The notes under the pieces: generated by a model
Told to the model about the DNA's origin: nothing
What the model saw: only the letters and a program-made list of their open reading frames with translations
Database searches by the model: none
Program-made: the position numbers and the translations under genes
From: an uncultured Bacilli bacterium
Lineage (GTDB): Bacteria > Bacillota_I > Bacilli_A > RF39 > UBA660
Direction of reading: 5' to 3'
Length of the DNA stretch: 32,414 nucleotides
NCBI GenBank assembly: GCA_947628275.1
Contig: CANQZD010000003.1
Coordinates: 1 to 32,414, forward strand
Part shown: positions 359-21,874 of the stretch, piece after piece
Layout of the letters: each line of letters begins with the position of its first letter
Position numbering within the stretch: position 1 is the first letter of the stretch

Positions 359-724
359 GTGGAAAATATTATTTATGATATTTTATTCTTTCTGATTGTT
401 TTTTTAGTTATTTTTGTTATCAATTATATATCATCTTTGAAAAAACTCAAAAAGAAAAAGAAATTAGAATTAGTTGATTATTTAGTTACCAGATTTAAAT
501 TAAGTCCTAAGAAAATAAAAGCTCGGAAAATGGTTTTAACAATTAGCTTAATAAATGCTTTTATTATATCTAGTGTAGCAACATGTATAACAATGTTAGA
601 TATTAGTTTTATTTGGCAATTTATGATTGGTTTTGTGTTAGTATTTGCCCTCATATATTCTTTATATGAGATATATGGTAGATATTTAGTTAATAAAGGT
701 TATGGAAAGGAAAATAGAAAATGA
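359..724 (+). CDS. Small three-helix membrane protein between T-box and leuS
   Basis: This is an unrecognised membrane protein of about 121 residues. The ORF track starts at GTG 209, but that start lies inside T-box stem I and the first 50 codons would be riboswitch RNA. The better start is GTG 359, with GGAGG at 349-353 five bases upstream and just beyond the terminator U-run. The protein has a first hydrophobic helix (about residues 4-22), a very Lys-rich cytoplasmic stretch (KKLKKKKK), and two further hydrophobic segments (about 57-77 and 82-103), ending in a basic tail. Its TGA stop overlaps the leuS ATG in an ATGA junction, so the two are probably translationally coupled and both governed by leucyl-tRNA charging. 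I recognise no family and infer no function beyond co-regulation with leuS. Confidence 0.7.
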   Translation: MENIIYDILFFLIVFLVIFVINYISSLKKLKKKKKLELVDYLVTRFKLSPKKIKARKMVLTISLINAFIISSVATCITMLDISFIWQFMIGFVLVFALIYSLYEIYGRYLVNKGYGKENRK

Positions 725-3129
725 ATACTTTAGAAATAGAAAAAAAATGGCAAGATTATTGGGATAATCATCATACATTTGAGGCTAAAAATAATGATTC
801 TAAACCTCCATATTATGTATTGGTAGAATTTCCCTATCCATCTGGTAGTGGTCTTCATGTTGGACATGTTAGAAGTTATACTGCTCAAGATGCTATTGCA
901 AGGATGAAAAGAATGCAAGGGTTTAATGTTTTATATCCAATGGGTTGGGATGCTTTTGGAGCGCCTGCTGAAGCTTACGCTATCAAAAATCATATTCATC
1001 CTAAAGAAGCTGTCAAAGAAAACATTAAAACTTTTAAAAGTCAGATGAAAAATTTAGGTTTTTCATTTGATTGGACCAGAGAATTTTCTACGACAGATCC
1101 AGAATATTATAAATGGACTCAATGGCAATTCTTACAATTTTATAAACATGGGATGGCTTATAAAGATACAGTTCCAGTTAATTGGTGTCCAAATTGTAAA
1201 ACTGTTTTGTCTAATGAAGATGCTGCTGGAGGAATTTGTGAACGTTGTGGAACTAGTGTTACTCAAAAAGAAAAATCACAATGGATGCTTAAAATGTCTA
1301 GCTATGCTGAAGATTTATTAAAAGGTTTAGATGATACTAATTTTGCTAATAAAGTAAAGTTAGGTCAAATTAATTGGATTGGTAAATCAACGGGAGTTGA
1401 AGTTGATATTGATATTGTAGGTGGTGGTAAGTTTAGTATCTTTACTACCTGTATTGAAACTATTTATGGTATTACTTTCTTTGTTATTGCTCCTGATGGA
1501 AAATTAATTAAAGAATTATTACCAAGGGTTTTAAATAAAGAAGAAGTTTTAGCTTATATTGAAGAAACTAAAAAGAAATCAAATATGGACCGGACCGAAT
1601 TAAATAAAGGAAAAAGTGGTTGTGAACTTAAAGGTATTAAAGCCATTCATCCAATTACTAAAGAAGAAGTTCCAATTTTCTTAGGTGATTTTGTTTTAGG
1701 AGAGTATGGAACAGGTGCTGTTATGGCCGTTCCTAGTCATGATGAACGAGACTATGAATACGCTTTAGCTCATAATTTAGAGATGAAACAAGTTATTGAC
1801 GGTAAAGATACATCTAAAGAAGCATATGAAAAACATGAATATTTAGGTGTTGGAGCTAAACTTATCAATAGTGCAGAATTTACTGGTTTAACTGTTGAAG
1901 AAGCTAAAGAAAAAATCACTGAAAAATTAGTTAATGAAGGTATTGGGCGGGTTGTCAATAATTACAAAATGCGTGATTGGATTTTCTCTAGACAAAGATT
2001 CTGGGGTGAACCAATTCCAATGATTTATTGTGAACATTGTGGTTGGGTACCAATGTCTGAAAAAGACCTACCTTTATTACTTCCTGATGTTGCTGAATAC
2101 GAACCAACTGATGATGGAGAAAGCCCTCTTGCTAAAATAACTGATTGGGTTAATACTACTTGTCCAAAATGTGGTGGACCTGCTAAAAGGGAAACTGATA
2201 CAATGCCTAACTGGGCTGGTTCAAGTTGGTATTTCTTAAGATTTATGGATGCTCATAATGACCAAGAATTTGCTAGCATGGATGCTATGAAATACTGGAA
2301 TCATGTAGATTGGTATAATGGTGGTATGGAACACACTGCCAGACATTTATTATATGCTCGGTTTTGGGTTCAATTTTTATATAATATTGGACTAGTTCCT
2401 AAAAAAGAAATGATTTGGACCCGAGTAAGTCATGGGATGGTGTTAGGTTCTAATAATGAAAAAATGAGTAAAAGTAAAGGTAATGTTATCAATCCTGATG
2501 ATATTGTTAATGAGTATGGAGCTGATACATTAAGAGTTTATGAAGTATTTATGGGTGATTATCAAGCTGATGTTCCGTGGAGTACCGAATCGCTTAAAGG
2601 CTGTAGAAGATTTATTGATAAAGTTATTCGTTTAAAAGATAAAGTTGTTGATAAGAAAGGATACTCTAGCGATTTAGAAGCTTTGATTCATAAAAGTATT
2701 AAAAAAGTAACTCATGATACTTTAAATTTAAGTTATAATACGGCTATTTCAACATTAATGATTTTAGCAAATGCTTATCAAGACCATGATGAAATAACTA
2801 AAGATGAATATCACTTATTATTAACCCTTTTAAATCCTTATGCTCCTCATATTACTGAAGAGTTAAATGAACAAATTGGTTATCAACCAATCTGTGAATC
2901 TTCTTGGCCAGAATATGATGAAGCAAAAACAATTGATGATAAAATAACGATTGGTGTTCAAGTAAATGGCAAATTAAGAGGAGAAGTATTAGTTAATACT
3001 GATGAAGAAGAATCTAGTGTTAAAGAAAAGGTTATTAACATTGAAAATATTCAAAAATACTTAGATGGAAAAGAAATAGTTAAGTTTATTTATATACCTA
3101 ATAAGATTGTTAATATCATTATTAAGTGA
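721..3129 (+). CDS. leuS: Leucyl-tRNA synthetase
   Basis: This class I aminoacyl-tRNA synthetase charges tRNA-Leu with leucine in the cytoplasm. At 802 residues it has the usual bacterial LeuS length. Visible landmarks are the HIGH-type motif HVGH (46-49), a Cys-rich zinc element (CPNC...CERC, about 158-176), the CP1 editing domain with MAVPSHDERDYEYA (from about 335), a second Cys pair set (CEHC, CPKCGG), the tryptophan-rich NWAGSSWYFLRF segment, KMSKS (581-585), and the C-terminal VQVNGKLRG motif. It follows the T-box and overlaps the small membrane gene by four bases; GGAAAGG at 704-710 is the ribosome binding site. Expression should respond to leucine starvation through the leader. Nothing is unusual in the protein. 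Confidence 0.98.
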   Translation: MNTLEIEKKWQDYWDNHHTFEAKNNDSKPPYYVLVEFPYPSGSGLHVGHVRSYTAQDAIARMKRMQGFNVLYPMGWDAFGAPAEAYAIKNHIHPKEAVKENIKTFKSQMKNLGFSFDWTREFSTTDPEYYKWTQWQFLQFYKHGMAYKDTVPVNWCPNCKTVLSNEDAAGGICERCGTSVTQKEKSQWMLKMSSYAEDLLKGLDDTNFANKVKLGQINWIGKSTGVEVDIDIVGGGKFSIFTTCIETIYGITFFVIAPDGKLIKELLPRVLNKEEVLAYIEETKKKSNMDRTELNKGKSGCELKGIKAIHPITKEEVPIFLGDFVLGEYGTGAVMAVPSHDERDYEYALAHNLEMKQVIDGKDTSKEAYEKHEYLGVGAKLINSAEFTGLTVEEAKEKITEKLVNEGIGRVVNNYKMRDWIFSRQRFWGEPIPMIYCEHCGWVPMSEKDLPLLLPDVAEYEPTDDGESPLAKITDWVNTTCPKCGGPAKRETDTMPNWAGSSWYFLRFMDAHNDQEFASMDAMKYWNHVDWYNGGMEHTARHLLYARFWVQFLYNIGLVPKKEMIWTRVSHGMVLGSNNEKMSKSKGNVINPDDIVNEYGADTLRVYEVFMGDYQADVPWSTESLKGCRRFIDKVIRLKDKVVDKKGYSSDLEALIHKSIKKVTHDTLNLSYNTAISTLMILANAYQDHDEITKDEYHLLLTLLNPYAPHITEELNEQIGYQPICESSWPEYDEAKTIDDKITIGVQVNGKLRGEVLVNTDEEESSVKEKVINIENIQKYLDGKEIVKFIYIPNKIVNIIIK

Positions 3130-16167: not shown

Positions 16168-18729
16168 ATGGATTCTAATGATGTTAATGATACTGAAGAA
16201 CTAACAAACGATGAAGAATTAATGGATAATAATAATCTTCCATCTGAAGAACCGCCTTTAGAAGAAAATGAAGCCCAAATGGATATAGAACCACCAAAAA
16301 GTGGCAATTTTTTGGGTGTGGCTAGTAAGAAATTAATTAATTTACTATTAAAAAGGAAACTTATTGTTATTGGGGCTGTTGGCATTATGTTTATCGTTTT
16401 TTTAGCAGTCTTTTTTGGTTCGAATGTTTCTACTGAAACATACAATTATAAGAAAATGGAGAGTTTAGATGATCCTTGTGATATGGTTGAAGTAACATAT
16501 GCTCCATATGGTAGTAACGAAGTTGAAACATCTTCTCTTGCCCTAGAAGATTATATTGCTAAAGCTACTTATACATATACTAAAGATTTTAAAAATATTA
16601 ATGAAGGAACATATCACTTATATAAAGCTTTAGCTATTGCTTTAAGAACAGAAGTTGTATCTCATGGTTGTAAAGTAACTTATAAAGATAAAAAGTTACT
16701 TAATAAACCGGCTATTGAAGGTAAATACAATATCTTAAACAATGCTTTAGAATCAGCTGAAGGAGTAATTATATCTAAAGCTGGTAAAAAAAAGATTATG
16801 AGTACTGAAGTATCTGATTTTTGCTATAGTAATAATGATGGCAATAATTATACAATTTTTCAAGTCCCAGACTTTTTAATTCCTAGTGAATGGGTAGATA
16901 AAAATGTCCCTAGTCGTTATAAAGATTGTCCTTGTAATCAACCTGATGAAAACTTAAGTGCTTGTTATGAAGAAGGAGATTTTAAAGAATGGGCTCACCA
17001 AGATGACACAAGTGGTTTTAATGTTTATGCAGCATATTATTTACTTGATGAATATAAATTAAGTTGGTCAGATATTTTAAAATATTTTGTTGGTGACCAT
17101 AATTATTGGACAATTAAAGAAGAAGATGAAGAAGAAAACGAAAATGCTTTAAATGAAAATTGTGGAGCGATGGATTTACATAAAACTAGTCTAAGTAAAT
17201 CTCAATTTGTTGCGGGTATGAAATCTTATAATTACAATGGAGCAAGTCCTGCTGGTTGGCAAAAATTTGTTAATAATGCTGAAACTATTTATGATGTTGC
17301 CGTAGCTAATAGTATTAATCCTGAATTTGTCGTTGTAAGAGCAATATTAGAAGGTTTTTCACCAGGGGAAGGGAAAAATAATTATTGGGGCTGGACCTGC
17401 TATAACACCTGCCCAAGTTGTTGTACTGATTTTGGGGCTAATTTTAAAGATGCTGTTGCCTCATATTGCCAAGCTGTATACAAACAATACACTGATTATA
17501 ATGATTTATTAAGAAGTTATGCTTATTTAGGTGATTATTGGTATAATCCTGGTGATGAAAGTATAGGTGGTTGCTATTATGCTCCATATATTTTCCCAGA
17601 TGGAATTCCTAAAAGAGTTGAACAAGCATGTAATGGTCCCGCTTGTAGTTCTGGTAATCCTGCTAGTTGCACTAAAACTACTGAAGAAGAACAAATCTTA
17701 TATGGTAAATATCAAGATCGTAATACTCAAACATACCGAAAAGCAATATGGAATATTAGTGAAACTGATTGTAAAATGCAAAATAGTGGAGCCGGTTGTC
17801 TATGGTGGCCAATTGGTTCTAAAAAAACAACTGTAAGAGATGAAATAACTTATGCTGATGGAGAGCCTGAAACAACTACTATAACTAGCGGTTTTGGTAA
17901 ACGTGATGCTCCATTATCTGGGGCAAGTACTAATCATAATGCCATTGATATTGGTGGTGGCGAAGAATTTAATACTAATATAATTGCGGCTGCTGATGGA
18001 ACTGTTAAAAATATAAATACTGGGTGTGTAGCTGGAAATTATTCTTGTGGTGGTCAATTAGGAAATTATGTCTTTATTGCTCATGATGATGGAAGTCTAA
18101 CTAGATATGGTCATATGAGTAGCGTCTTGGTTAACGAAGGTGATCAAGTTAAGCAAGGAGAAGTTATTGGTAAATTAGGAAATACGGGAAATTCAACTGG
18201 CCCTCATTTAGATTTCCAAGTTCAAGTAAATGGTCAAATTGTCGATCCGACAAACTATGTATCTGCTAGTGACCCAAGAAAAGTTTGTAGTGGTTCTGGA
18301 AGCATCGTAAATGGTGATAATAATAAACAAACTATTTGTTTAACTTTAAAAAATAGTGGCTATAGTACTAATGCTATTGCCGGAATTATGGGCAATTTAC
18401 AACACGAAAGTGGGTTTGATCCTGAAAGTGTTAATGACTCAAATCGTAAAGGAATTGCTCAGTGGAGTCCAACTAGATTTAATAAATTAACTAGTATTTA
18501 TGGAAGTAATAGTTATTCAGTTGAAAGTCAAATTAAGTTCTTAATTAAGGAATTAAATGAATCTTATCCAGAAGCTGAAAAATATTTAGGCGAAAAACAT
18601 TCAGCTAAAGACCAAGCATATAATTTCTGTGTGGCTTATGAAAAACATAGTAAAAGTGAATGTGATAATTCCTTAAGAGAAGATTATGCTACTGAATTAG
18701 TTAGTTATGTAAAAAATGATTGTAGTTAG
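16168..18729 (+). CDS. Membrane-anchored multi-domain peptidoglycan hydrolase: SpoIID-like, glucosaminidase, M23, phage-lysozyme
   Basis: This protein has 853 residues. Residues 1-60 are an acidic cytoplasmic tail, 64-84 a single transmembrane helix; the rest is outside. Domains by eye: SpoIID-like (about 105-312; LALEDYIAKATY, LYKALAIALRTEV, ending FNVYAAYYLLDEY...DILKYFVGD); glucosaminidase-like (about 345-470; catalytic Glu in AILEG, E395, then NNYWGW); M23/LytM endopeptidase (about 572-696; H590-x3-D594, H649, and GPHLD at 678-682); and a C-terminal phage-type lysozyme (about 718-850; GIMGNLQHESGF with E747, GIAQW). The SpoIID catalytic Glu seems absent and the M23 HxH is HxD. The outer part holds 25 cysteines. 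It opens a three-gene block with a VirB8-like and a VirD4-like gene, which points to the wall-opening (VirB1-like) component of a type IV secretion-type machine. Confidence 0.85.
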   Translation: MDSNDVNDTEELTNDEELMDNNNLPSEEPPLEENEAQMDIEPPKSGNFLGVASKKLINLLLKRKLIVIGAVGIMFIVFLAVFFGSNVSTETYNYKKMESLDDPCDMVEVTYAPYGSNEVETSSLALEDYIAKATYTYTKDFKNINEGTYHLYKALAIALRTEVVSHGCKVTYKDKKLLNKPAIEGKYNILNNALESAEGVIISKAGKKKIMSTEVSDFCYSNNDGNNYTIFQVPDFLIPSEWVDKNVPSRYKDCPCNQPDENLSACYEEGDFKEWAHQDDTSGFNVYAAYYLLDEYKLSWSDILKYFVGDHNYWTIKEEDEEENENALNENCGAMDLHKTSLSKSQFVAGMKSYNYNGASPAGWQKFVNNAETIYDVAVANSINPEFVVVRAILEGFSPGEGKNNYWGWTCYNTCPSCCTDFGANFKDAVASYCQAVYKQYTDYNDLLRSYAYLGDYWYNPGDESIGGCYYAPYIFPDGIPKRVEQACNGPACSSGNPASCTKTTEEEQILYGKYQDRNTQTYRKAIWNISETDCKMQNSGAGCLWWPIGSKKTTVRDEITYADGEPETTTITSGFGKRDAPLSGASTNHNAIDIGGGEEFNTNIIAAADGTVKNINTGCVAGNYSCGGQLGNYVFIAHDDGSLTRYGHMSSVLVNEGDQVKQGEVIGKLGNTGNSTGPHLDFQVQVNGQIVDPTNYVSASDPRKVCSGSGSIVNGDNNKQTICLTLKNSGYSTNAIAGIMGNLQHESGFDPESVNDSNRKGIAQWSPTRFNKLTSIYGSNSYSVESQIKFLIKELNESYPEAEKYLGEKHSAKDQAYNFCVAYEKHSKSECDNSLREDYATELVSYVKNDCS

Positions 18730-18737
18730 GAGATTCT

Positions 18738-19631
18738 ATGAAAAAAAAGAAAGTTATTCGTTTTGTTATCATTATAAGTATCTTCTTATTAATTTTTCTT
18801 CTTGTTTATCTAATTAATGGTAAGAACAGATTAGGAATTGAAAAATATGAAGAACCACCTGCTGAAAAAATTCCTTATGATATGACACTTGTTGATGATT
18901 ACAGTTATTTCTTTTCCGTTGTTAATATCATAAATAATTATTTGAATTATGTTAAAAATCAAGATACGGAAGCTTTAATTAATATTTTACATCCTGAGTA
19001 TCTTGATTCATATAAAATAAATAGCAATAATTTATATGAAAATTTAGGCACTTTTACTGAGGGTTTACAACTAGCTTATGAAGCCAAAAATATGGATTAT
19101 AAAATTTATGATAATCGGTATCTTTACTATGTTAAAGGGGATATTATTGAAAATGATTTTGAAGATAGTAAAATCATTATGAATGATGTAATGTTTTTAG
19201 TTAATATTGATTATGATAATATTACTTATGCAATCTATCCTCTAAATTATCTTTATGAAACCTTACCAATTATCAACCCTCAAAAGCCTATTAATTTAAA
19301 TGCTTATAATGAATTAATTGGTTCAAATGTTATAACTAAAGATTATTTGTGTAATTTATACTTAAATGATTTTATTATTAAGCTAAATAATAACTTGGAA
19401 AATACTTATGATTTATTAGCTAATAATTTTCGACAAAAATCTTTTGCCCACAAAAAAGATTATTTAAATTATATGCAAAATGTTAAAGATAAAATTAGTT
19501 CACAAGTATTTAGTTGTAGCTCATTAAGTGGTAAGAAAAAAGTTTATGAAGTTAAAGATATGAATTTTAATGTTTTTACTTTTACAGAAGAAAGTATTAT
19601 GAATTATAAAGTTGAATTTACAATCAATTAA
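18738..19631 (+). CDS. Membrane-anchored two-domain protein, VirB8/TcpC-like candidate
   Basis: The protein has 297 residues: a basic N-terminus, one transmembrane helix (about 7-27), then an outer part that appears to contain two similar helix-plus-sheet modules, one from DDYSYFFSVVNIINNYLNYVKNQDTEALINIL (about 51-83) and one from TKDYLCNLYLNDFIIKLNNNLENTYDLLANNF (about 200-231). Each pairs an opening helix with later strands, as in NTF2-like folds. A single anchor followed by two NTF2-like domains is the architecture of TcpC and related VirB8 proteins of Gram-positive conjugation systems. Direct sequence similarity is too weak for certainty; context (hydrolase before, VirD4 after) drives the call. 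TAGGAGA lies four bases before the ATG, and it follows the hydrolase stop by eight bases. Confidence 0.55.
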   Translation: MKKKKVIRFVIIISIFLLIFLLVYLINGKNRLGIEKYEEPPAEKIPYDMTLVDDYSYFFSVVNIINNYLNYVKNQDTEALINILHPEYLDSYKINSNNLYENLGTFTEGLQLAYEAKNMDYKIYDNRYLYYVKGDIIENDFEDSKIIMNDVMFLVNIDYDNITYAIYPLNYLYETLPIINPQKPINLNAYNELIGSNVITKDYLCNLYLNDFIIKLNNNLENTYDLLANNFRQKSFAHKKDYLNYMQNVKDKISSQVFSCSSLSGKKKVYEVKDMNFNVFTFTEESIMNYKVEFTIN

Positions 19632-19635
19632 TATT

Positions 19636-19663
19636 TTGTGGTTTTAGTATTTTGTAGTATAAT
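19636..19663 (+). promoter_or_regulatory. Possible internal promoter before the VirD4-like gene
   Basis: TTGTGG (19636-19641), 16 bases, TATAAT (19658-19663). AAAGGAGG (19674-19681) lies six bases before ATG 19688. The -10 is perfect, the -35 poor. Confidence 0.5.
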
Positions 19664-19687
19664 AATGAAAGTTAAAGGAGGGCGACT

Positions 19688-21799
19688 ATGAAATTCCGAG
19701 TTTCACCAAAAGATTTTACAATTTTCATCATTTTTTGCATTTTTTTGCTTTATTTATGTGCTATTGCTGTTTTAAATTTTTCTTCATTTGCTAATGATGG
19801 AACCTTTCATGGCTTAAATCCTTTTCCGGCTTTTGGACCTGATTATATCTTTTTAACTTTATTTATGTTTGTGATGGCATTAGTTATGATATTTTCTAGT
19901 GTTTCATCTTATATTTTTGAAAAAGATAAAAGTGGTAAAAGATTAATTAATGTTAAAGAAAAAGAAGAAAAAGGTTATTCTCGTTGGGCTAAAGAAAAAG
20001 AAATCAAAGAAGATAAAGGAATCGTTCATATTAAAGCGATTGATAAAAATATTGAAGGTGCAGGAATTCCAATTATTAATAATGGTACTGATTTATGGGT
20101 TGATAATGGGGAATATCATACTTTAATTATTGGTACAACTGGTAGTGGTAAATCTGAATGTGTGGTTAAACCTCAAGTTAATGTTTTGGCTAAAAAAGGC
20201 GAAAGTATGATTGTTACTGACCCTAAAGGTGAACTATATAAATATTGTGGAAGTTATTTAAAAGAACAAGGTTATAATATTATTGTTTTAAATTTTAGAG
20301 ATCCTGAAGAGGGTAATGCTTGGAATCCCTTGACGGCGCCTTATCAAAATTATAAAAATGGTAATCGTGATAAAGCTACTGAATTATTAGATGATATTGC
20401 TACTAATATTTTAGTGGACCCAAAAAACAAAGAATCTGCCTTTTGGGAAAGAAGTGCAGCTGACTATTTTTGTGGTCTTGCTTTAGGCTTATTTAAAGAT
20501 GCTAAAGAAAGTGAAGTAAATTTAAATTCTATAAATGTTATGAGTACTATTGGCGAAGAACGTTTTGCAACTAGTCATTATATTAATGAATATTTTAACT
20601 TAAAAGGTGCTGATTCTTCTGAATATATCTTTGCTTCAAATACAATTAATGCTCCAAATGAAACCAAAGGGGGTATTTTATCAACCTTTAGACAAAAAAT
20701 AAGAATTTTTTCTTCAAGAGAAAAATTAAGTGAAATGTTATCTTATAGTGATTTTGATATGCGTTCTATAGGTGAACAAAAAACGGCTGTTTTCTTAATA
20801 ATTCATGATGAAAAAACGACTTATCATAGTTTATTAACCGTCTTTTTAAAACAATGTTATGAAACACTAATTGATGTAGCTAAACAACATGGTGGTAAAT
20901 TACCAGTTAGAACCAATTTTATTTTAGATGAATTTGCCAATATGCCACCTTTAAGTGATGTTGATTCCATGGTTTCAGCGGCAAGAAGTCGGGATATTAG
21001 ATTTACCTTTATTATTCAAAACTTTTCCCAATTAGATGACGTGTATGGTAAAGAAGTCGCCCAAACAATTAAAGGAAATTCTAACAATTGGATATATTTG
21101 ATAAGTACAGAAATGGCTGCTTTAGAAGAAATTAGTAAAATGTGCGGTGAAGTTAAAAGTAAAGAAAAAGATAAAACAGCATCAACGCCATTAGTAACTA
21201 TTACAGATTTACAAAAGATGAAACTTTTCCAAGCCATCATTATCCGTTCAAGAATGGCTCCATTTAAAACTCAACTAGAACCAGACTTTAAAATGGATTG
21301 GGGAATTGAACGTAAGGAAATGGCTTTCCCTCATCGTCAGATGAAACATGTTGATACTTTCGATATTAAAAACTATGTTTCCGAAGCTAAAAGAAAACAA
21401 ATGATGGAAAATAATTCTAGTGATTCAAATCCTTTTAATCCTTTTGCTAATCCTAGTTTACCTCCAATGGGCTTTAACCCTTTTGGTGGAATTCCAATTA
21501 ATAACGGTGGTGCAATGCCTACAATGAATAGACCAGCTGGCAATTTAACAAGTGAAGAAATTGATAAAATGATTGCCGATATCGATAAAAAATTGGCTGA
21601 ATTAGATGAAGAAGAAGCAAAAGAAAAAGCAAATCTTGAAAATCAAGTATCTAATAAAGACAAAGTTAAACCAATTATTAAAGAAGAAACACCTAAGGAA
21701 GAGGAAAAGCCAAAAATTAATGTTGATACTGATGCCATTATTATGAATGATAATATGATTACTGATGATGAATTTTTTGATGATTTTTTTAATGATTAA
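19688..21799 (+). CDS. VirD4/TraG-type coupling ATPase
   Basis: This protein has 703 residues. Two N-terminal transmembrane helices (about 10-32 and 53-77) are followed by a RecA-like hexameric ATPase domain with Walker A GTTGSGKS (149-156), the T4CP motif IVTDPKGELY (about 176-185), FRDPEEGNAWNPL, and Walker B NFILDEFANMP (about 407-417), then AARSRDIRFTFIIQNFSQLDDVYG typical of VirD4/TraG. In conjugation and effector secretion these ATPases bring substrates to a type IV secretion channel. The C-terminus (from about 570) is a Pro/Asn/Gly-rich linker, a short coiled coil (EEIDKMIADIDKKLAELDEEEAKEK) and an acidic end (DDEFFDDFFND), possibly a substrate-docking tail. No relaxase or VirB4 is nearby, so it may serve a split or non-mobile secretion system. 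Confidence 0.93.
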   Translation: MKFRVSPKDFTIFIIFCIFLLYLCAIAVLNFSSFANDGTFHGLNPFPAFGPDYIFLTLFMFVMALVMIFSSVSSYIFEKDKSGKRLINVKEKEEKGYSRWAKEKEIKEDKGIVHIKAIDKNIEGAGIPIINNGTDLWVDNGEYHTLIIGTTGSGKSECVVKPQVNVLAKKGESMIVTDPKGELYKYCGSYLKEQGYNIIVLNFRDPEEGNAWNPLTAPYQNYKNGNRDKATELLDDIATNILVDPKNKESAFWERSAADYFCGLALGLFKDAKESEVNLNSINVMSTIGEERFATSHYINEYFNLKGADSSEYIFASNTINAPNETKGGILSTFRQKIRIFSSREKLSEMLSYSDFDMRSIGEQKTAVFLIIHDEKTTYHSLLTVFLKQCYETLIDVAKQHGGKLPVRTNFILDEFANMPPLSDVDSMVSAARSRDIRFTFIIQNFSQLDDVYGKEVAQTIKGNSNNWIYLISTEMAALEEISKMCGEVKSKEKDKTASTPLVTITDLQKMKLFQAIIIRSRMAPFKTQLEPDFKMDWGIERKEMAFPHRQMKHVDTFDIKNYVSEAKRKQMMENNSSDSNPFNPFANPSLPPMGFNPFGGIPINNGGAMPTMNRPAGNLTSEEIDKMIADIDKKLAELDEEEAKEKANLENQVSNKDKVKPIIKEETPKEEEKPKINVDTDAIIMNDNMITDDEFFDDFFND

Positions 21800-21843: not shown

Positions 21844-21874
21844 TTGACTAGGGGGGGGGGTCTTATGTTATAAT
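21844..21874 (+). promoter_or_regulatory. Promoter with a G10 homopolymer in the spacer, candidate phase-variation switch
   Basis: The -35 TTGACT is at 21844-21849 and the -10 TATAAT at 21869-21874, with extended TGT before it. The spacer of 19 bases contains ten consecutive G residues (21851-21860). With this count the spacer is two bases over the 17-base optimum; eight G residues would give 17. Slippage of the run would change spacer length and so promoter strength. Confidence 0.75.

Follow-up and report, generated by a model that had tools for sequence, protein, structure and literature searches.

Three co-directional genes in the window analyzed here (the whole 32,414-nucleotide stretch of DNA, from an uncultured bacterium of the order RF39) code for a wall hydrolase (HYD), a 297-residue protein and a VirD4/TraG-type coupling ATPase (T4CP). 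It is likely that this trio represents the distal half of a complete, chromosomal type IV secretion system (T4SS) of the monoderm, MPF-FATA-like type, which is core to an order of genome-reduced gut Bacilli. The genome codes for a VirB4 ATPase at another site, and many relatives carry all parts in a single operon. What is new here is that the C-terminal domains of the hydrolase and the next gene are replaced as a linked pair. The system is probably a domesticated, order-wide T4SS with a polymorphic hydrolase-partner cassette that is used in cell-cell contact.

The trio and its genomic setting

The three ORFs are complete and follow one another in the order hydrolase, 297-residue protein (the "slot-B partner") and T4CP, with the positions and shared strand given in an earlier note on this DNA (Table 1). 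Upstream are genes for glycosyltransferases and for DUF2304 and EamA proteins, and downstream are clpP and gapdh/pgk/tpi; the annotated ORFs thus agree with the polysaccharide operon and the clpP/glycolysis genes named as flanks in that note. The same trio was found again in dozens of relatives and is therefore far beyond chance. No relaxase, integrase, VirB4 or VirB6 was seen among the annotated ORFs of the window, the window holds no tRNA gene, and a search of it returned no long direct-repeat pair bracketing the trio.

Table 1. Positions in the window of the trio and of its domains and motifs
Feature	Position	Strand	Description
Wall hydrolase HYD (VirB1-like)	16168..18729	+	853-aa ORF
Slot-B partner	18738..19631	+	297-aa ORF
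T4CP (VirD4/TraG-type coupling ATPase)	19688..21799	+	703-aa ORF
Peptidase_M23 (LytM) domain	17932..18249	+	HYD residues 589-694; motifs HNAID, PHLDF
Phage_lysozyme2 domain	18322..18705	+	HYD residues 719-846
NTF2-like module 1	18900..19244	+	Slot-B residues 55-169, predicted structure
NTF2-like module 2	19338..19622	+	Slot-B residues 201-295, predicted structure
T4CP Walker A, GTTGSGKS	20132..20155	+	Residue 149; Walker A in 139/139 relatives
T4CP Walker B region, ILDEFA	20921..20938	+	Residue 412; Walker B-like motif in 139/139
T4CP C-terminal tail motif, FFDDFF	21773..21790	+	Near-invariant, 133/139 relatives
Putative exchangeable cassette, approximate	17200..19631	+	By analogy with the L154/L155 and L166/L168 breakpoints; not observed directly in the window

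HYD has one transmembrane segment near residue 56, preceded by a cytoplasmic tail, and matches Peptidase_M23 (E = 9.5e-27) and Phage_lysozyme2 (E = 3.1e-28), the make-up of a VirB1-type wall hydrolase of a T4SS. Its N-terminal half is common to relatives of every cassette type and is followed by the M23 and then the Phage_lysozyme2 domain. A SpoIID-like nature of this half was a motif impression that found no Pfam support in the window protein, and it was dropped; the Pfam SpoIID domain is present in the hydrolase of one relative (L107).

The ATPase is a VirD4-type coupling protein of a T4SS by its match to T4SS-DNA_transf (PF02534; E = 8.3e-57) and by its score with the NCBIfam model of the VirD4-like CD1115 family (290.5 bits, cut-off 250). 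It has two N-terminal transmembrane segments. In the T4CPs of the order, the FFDDFF tail stands behind a variable linker, and it may be a docking peptide. A gene for a rhodanese-like single-domain protein lies within three genes downstream of T4CP in 92 of the 151 mapped loci, often accompanied by DedA and RmuC genes; none is found beside the T4CP gene of the window.

Two other features of the window were recorded. A promoter-like sequence at 21844-21874 (TTGACT-N19-TATAAT) contains a run of ten G (21851-21860) in its spacer, the layout expected for slipped-strand phase variation. It sits just upstream of the gene for a 1421-residue repeat protein with an NPQTG-like C-terminal sorting signal, and this adjacent adhesin gene is missing at the corresponding site in close relatives. 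At the other end, the identity of leuS (window 721-3129) is out of step with taxonomy, at 47% to 79% with congeners and reaching 80% with several other genera. This pattern suggests replacement through horizontal transfer, or paralogues.

VirB4 and the probable second half of the system

The window's own assembly comprises 948 kb in 51 contigs and is 67% complete. It codes for a 594-residue VirB4 on a contig other than that of the trio (G000:C47:535-2316), between gltX, which follows, and the gene for a separate VirB4 N-terminal protein (VirB4N), which precedes it and is cut by the contig end. The Walker A motif is present in 89/89 core VirB4s. The absence of VirB4 reported in the earlier note thus holds for the window and does not extend to the genome. 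That note had also proposed a genome search for VirB6 and relaxases, and in the 67%-complete assembly neither VirB6 nor MOBP, MOBV or MOBT relaxases gave a match; VirB3 and VirB2-like genes were not recovered from it.

In congeners, VirB6-like and PrgI/VirB3-like genes adjoin VirB4 (G041, G220, G087 and G123; family matches weak), and the block is ordered (VirB2-like)-VirB6-PrgI-VirB4N-VirB4 (L111, L113, L274 and L276). As contig C47 starts inside VirB4N, the species of the window presumably has VirB6, VirB3 and VirB2-like genes as well. PrgI, VirB4N and VirB4 cover positions 2-96, 93-276 and 294-891, respectively, of model NF045975 (mycoplasma-ICE VirB4), below its cut-off.

Relatives carry a single operon of VirB2-like, VirB6, PrgI/VirB3, split VirB4, hydrolase, a variable gene, VirD4 and rhodanese genes, and in many genera the VirB4, hydrolase, slot and T4CP genes lie side by side (L096-L100, L102, L107 and others). 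In all examined members of the window's genus, the genes fall into two blocks, which lie on different contigs and share no flanking genes: VirB6-PrgI/VirB3-VirB4N-VirB4 at one site and hydrolase-partner-VirD4 at another. The ancestral operon would have broken in two in this genus. In G111, which is assembled as one contig, the two blocks lie about 42 kb apart, and both halves can therefore share one chromosome.

The block of hydrolase, slot gene and T4CP has no fixed site. In the window and the closest relatives (L144-L149, L153) it lies at a polysaccharide operon, and elsewhere (L156, L157, L162, L170, L178) at a Tad-pilus-like locus with a T2SSE match. Tad-pilus-like genes lie directly upstream of the hydrolase in the latter loci and in L273 and L275, and directly upstream of VirB6 in L101-L104, L106 and L107. 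The set consists of the T2SSE match and TadB/C-like, Flp-like, TadE-like and TadZ-like genes, most of which were assigned from size and position alone. In genus g3 (L185-L217, e.g., L280), the operon has been split independently in another way, in that T4CP lies behind uppS and the gene for a small single-TM protein, with the hydrolase and slot B elsewhere (L279).

Distribution and inheritance in the order

Among the 241 genomes of the order, 219 have a VirB4 match and 226 a T4CP match, compared with 231 for the housekeeping gene leuS; both ATPases were absent from about 5% of the genomes searched, which are incomplete MAGs. The VirB4 matches listed for the order are without internal stops. 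Identity among core VirB4s is 64-100% within the order and at most 34% outside it, in class- and phylum-wide samples, and many of the nearest related loci come from animal gut. A tree was built from 89 core VirB4s and, as the outgroup, two VirB4s of ICEs. Each of the 12 genera represented by two or more members was monophyletic, and the number of changes was the minimum of 11, against a mean of 35.9 after shuffling. Genus labels were taken for this analysis in place of leuS, which was rejected as a species-tree proxy because its identity does not track them.

These comparisons support a chromosomal, vertically inherited T4SS that is core to the order. The trio is thus core rather than sporadic, a distinction that the earlier note had put forward for a synteny check, and the first of its two alternatives, namely that the remaining parts lie elsewhere as a domesticated apparatus, is supported: VirB4 is present in the genome, and the system is chromosomal and vertically inherited.

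Three kinds of gene between hydrolase and T4CP

Between the hydrolase and T4CP there is usually a gene of one of three kinds, called slots B, A and L, which are unrelated to one another. Slot B, the kind of the window, has two NTF2-like modules, which in several genera are separate adjacent genes. Slot A proteins, of about 257 residues, are mostly beta; their fold had no match in the PDB, the best being latexin with a nonsignificant E value of 0.12, and assignment to a known fold was rejected. Slot L proteins, of about 230 residues, are lipoprotein-like with a C-terminal TM segment and gave one weak LppM match. All three kinds occur in the window's genus, and the T4CP tree, a quick tree with several long branches, implies at least 25 changes of kind.

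The 297-residue protein has no family match. We modelled it with AlphaFold2 from a 35-sequence alignment (mean pLDDT 90.7), and the predicted structure has one N-terminal anchor helix and two alpha-beta4 modules, with helices followed by four strands. The six best Foldseek matches in the PDB were OrfG of ICESt3 (four entries/chains), an uncharacterized Clostridium leptum protein and TcpC, all with weak E values (0.002-0.03). A likeness to OrfG and TcpC is suggested by topology and consistent ranking. The VirB8/TcpC assignment of the earlier note, which would have fallen had the protein not been NTF2-like, is therefore borne out at the level of a predicted anchor and tandem NTF2-like modules. 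A VirB8 would also be a constant part of the channel, and most relatives have slot A or slot L proteins instead. As one of three unrelated slot occupants, the 297-residue protein is therefore not a universal VirB8.

Linked exchange of hydrolase domains and partner

The kind of slot gene goes with the kind of hydrolase. Slot B stands behind an M23 hydrolase in 37/37 cases; slot A stands behind a C39-like hydrolase in 22 of 26 and never behind M23, and slot L mostly behind CHAP/NlpC (20), sometimes M23 (10) or C39. Of 14 phylogenetically independent contrasts of M23 against slot B, about 13 were for the association and none against (sign test, p about 0.00024). Pairwise coverage relative to the window's HYD showed that slot-A hydrolases match it up to residue about 530 but hardly at all over 600-853; the M23 part is common to all slot-B hydrolases.

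Two pairs of near relatives, L154/L155 and L166/L168, delimit the exchanged segment. Their T4CPs are 91-92% identical and residues 1 to 340-355 of their hydrolases 75% identical, but there is no similarity in the hydrolase C-terminus or the slot gene. DNA similarity ends at hydrolase residue about 340-355 and returns just past the stop codon of the slot gene, so that blocks of about 2 kb containing the hydrolase C-terminal domains and the next gene were exchanged together. As unrelated folds replace the slot gene along with the hydrolase domain, the protein encoded there would be a functional companion of the hydrolase and not of the constant channel. Tandem hydrolase-partner pairs between VirB4 and T4CP were also observed, in L105, L106, L252, L266 and L270.

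Polymorphic toxins are characterized by a conserved N-terminus, a swapped C-terminal enzyme and a swapped cognate downstream gene. The hydrolase with its constant N-terminus, exchanged C-terminus and linked downstream gene has the same architecture, which by analogy speaks for immunity: the hydrolase C-terminus would be a polymorphic toxin with the slot gene as its immunity partner, and either the T4SS or the anchored hydrolase would serve as an antibacterial weapon against neighbors. Four of the tandem arrays (L105, L106, L252 and L266) fit such pairs, as do partners predicted to lie outside the membrane, where the enzyme acts. However, the swapped domains found are all wall hydrolases, as expected for VirB1, the hydrolases are membrane-anchored and not obviously exported, and slot B has the predicted fold of VirB8, a structural part of T4SSs. 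Orphan immunity genes are usual in toxin systems, whereas a search of 241 genomes for slot B returned single genes or adjacent split pairs and no orphan away from the locus; this lack of scattered copies argues mildly against immunity. We consider the weapon doubtful.

Relaxases and mobile elements

Relaxases are patchy in the order. The searches covered three families in 146 genomes, of which 35 gave a match to MOBP, 79 to MOBV and 3 to MOBT. No relaxase was found in the core loci mapped in relatives. About ten genomes that are 91-97% complete (G087, G123, G003, G004, G006, G009, G011, G014, G018 and G025) keep VirB4 and T4CP with no match to MOBP, MOBV or MOBT, and the system is therefore kept without those families. 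ICEs of the same order differ from it: L277 has a full-length 778-residue VirB4, a 221-residue hydrolase, a 609-residue T4CP with a relaxase-sized ORF next to it, and a MOBP match on the same contig (G035:C7).

The core system thus has no relaxase of its own among MOBP, MOBV and MOBT in the window's assembly and the mapped core loci, and its core distribution and the monophyly of genera differ from sporadic spread. The earlier note had named a recognizable integrated element with att sites as a finding that would count against its reading; none was seen, and we rejected an integrated element given the lack of tRNA, bracketing repeats and integrase and the order-wide vertical pattern.

Resident elements that have a relaxase (MOBV, MOBP) and no channel might use the T4SS in trans, the machine being a host-owned conjugation platform whose upkeep is thereby selected. 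The frequency of MOBV and MOBP is in keeping with this proposal, as is the assignment of the T4CP to the CD1115 type, which couples DNA. Nevertheless, it is an unlikely explanation: at least nine or ten of the near-complete genomes keep both ATPases without the three relaxase families, the mapped core loci are devoid of relaxases, and the linked hydrolase-partner exchange is left unexplained.

Discussion

We favor a domesticated T4SS for cell-cell contact. VirB4 with VirB3 and VirB6 would form the membrane translocon, and VirD4, with its nearly invariant acidic-aromatic tail, would bring the substrate in. The anchored hydrolase would open the wall locally, and the partner encoded by the neighboring gene would position or restrain it, presumably as its cognate adaptor or inhibitor. 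We infer that the machine is assembled and that its main job is contact-dependent translocation of protein or nucleic acid between cells, not self-transfer of its own genes.

The closest parallel described is the T4SS of Patescibacteria (PMC12102498). Both are lineage-specific, chromosomal, related to MPF-FATA and usually without relaxase, and both comprise VirB4 and wall hydrolases as well as PrgI/VirB3, VirB6 and VirB2-like pilins, which here are known from congeners; the patescibacterial system also has a separate VirB4-N-terminus-like protein (TrsD), like VirB4N here, and VirB8 is rarely found in it. In contrast, the host here is a Bacillota order, T4CP adjoins the hydrolase while patescibacterial T4CPs are mostly far from virB4, and the VirB1 counterpart is a large, anchored enzyme of several domains whose partner gene is swapped. 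The parallel, drawn from gene content and descriptions of lifestyle, is suggestive.

It raises the alternative that the machine imports nucleic acid or other nutrients scavenged from other cells, as proposed for T4SSs of auxotrophic Patescibacteria. RF39 is genome-reduced and reported to have no genes for de novo nucleic-acid synthesis (PMC13155120), and the chromosomal, relaxase-poor patescibacterial T4SS is essential for epibiotic growth in one species (PMC12102498). Import is nonetheless improbable, as a VirD4-type coupling protein, which points to export, is kept in 94% of genomes. A stand-alone trio, the second alternative of the earlier note, or a decaying relic of an integrated element is consistent with the absence of other T4SS genes from the window but can be dismissed as extremely improbable, since VirB4 is present in the same genome, relatives have intact operons, which together refute a stand-alone trio, the ATPase motifs are intact in all relatives examined, and inheritance is vertical throughout the order without element boundaries.

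The domesticated contact T4SS that we favor can be set beside other known systems. In pCF10 of Enterococcus, the order is PrgH-PrgI-PrgJ-PrgK-PrgL-PcfC, i.e., VirB6-VirB3-VirB4-VirB1-VirB8-VirD4, and the functional gene order here matches it. By gene order and fold, slot B would be the positional counterpart of PrgL, a VirB8-like protein bound by the hydrolase PrgK and thought to target PrgK to the channel (PMC11323569). Unlike that of pCF10, the system here is not on a plasmid and has no relaxase in the loci examined, and unrelated folds replace the partner in most genomes. TcpC of pCW3 and OrfG of ICESt3 have a single anchor and two NTF2-like domains, as predicted for slot B, but slot B shares no detectable sequence similarity with them, the structural matches being those weak ones given above, and is not universal in the system. 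In the mycoplasma ICE, the Mbov_0397 VirB4 model aligns end to end with PrgI, VirB4N and VirB4 together, and the MMCAP2_0566 family weakly matches VirB6, both below the curated cut-offs; the system here differs in not being a mobile element and in having three genes for the VirB4 region. Polymorphic toxin systems likewise have a constant N-terminus with an exchanged C-terminal enzyme and cognate downstream gene, and recombination with toxin cassettes has been described for them (PMC3482391). In contrast to these, the enzymes here are anchored wall hydrolases in a T4SS operon, and orphan slot-B genes are lacking.

A search of the open-access literature found nothing relevant on a T4SS in RF39. 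To our knowledge, no effector-immunity-like hydrolase-partner cassette has been described for a monoderm T4SS, and hardly any core, relaxase-poor T4SSs are known from bacteria other than diderms, the patescibacterial case being recent. We tentatively raise the possibility that a whole Gram-positive gut order has a domesticated contact T4SS in which the anchored hydrolase and its cognate partner form a polymorphic, effector-immunity-like cassette that passes between relatives. If true, such a T4SS would be convergent with, or akin to, the apparatus of Patescibacteria. The linked exchange of hydrolase domain and partner offers a natural experiment in the control that a monoderm T4SS exerts over its wall-opening enzyme, and the unrelated proteins at the VirB8 position bear on the apparent lack of VirB8 in many monoderm T4SSs. 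That such a machine occurs throughout an order of abundant, uncultured, auxotrophic gut Bacilli suggests a role for machines of this kind in a life in close contact with other cells.
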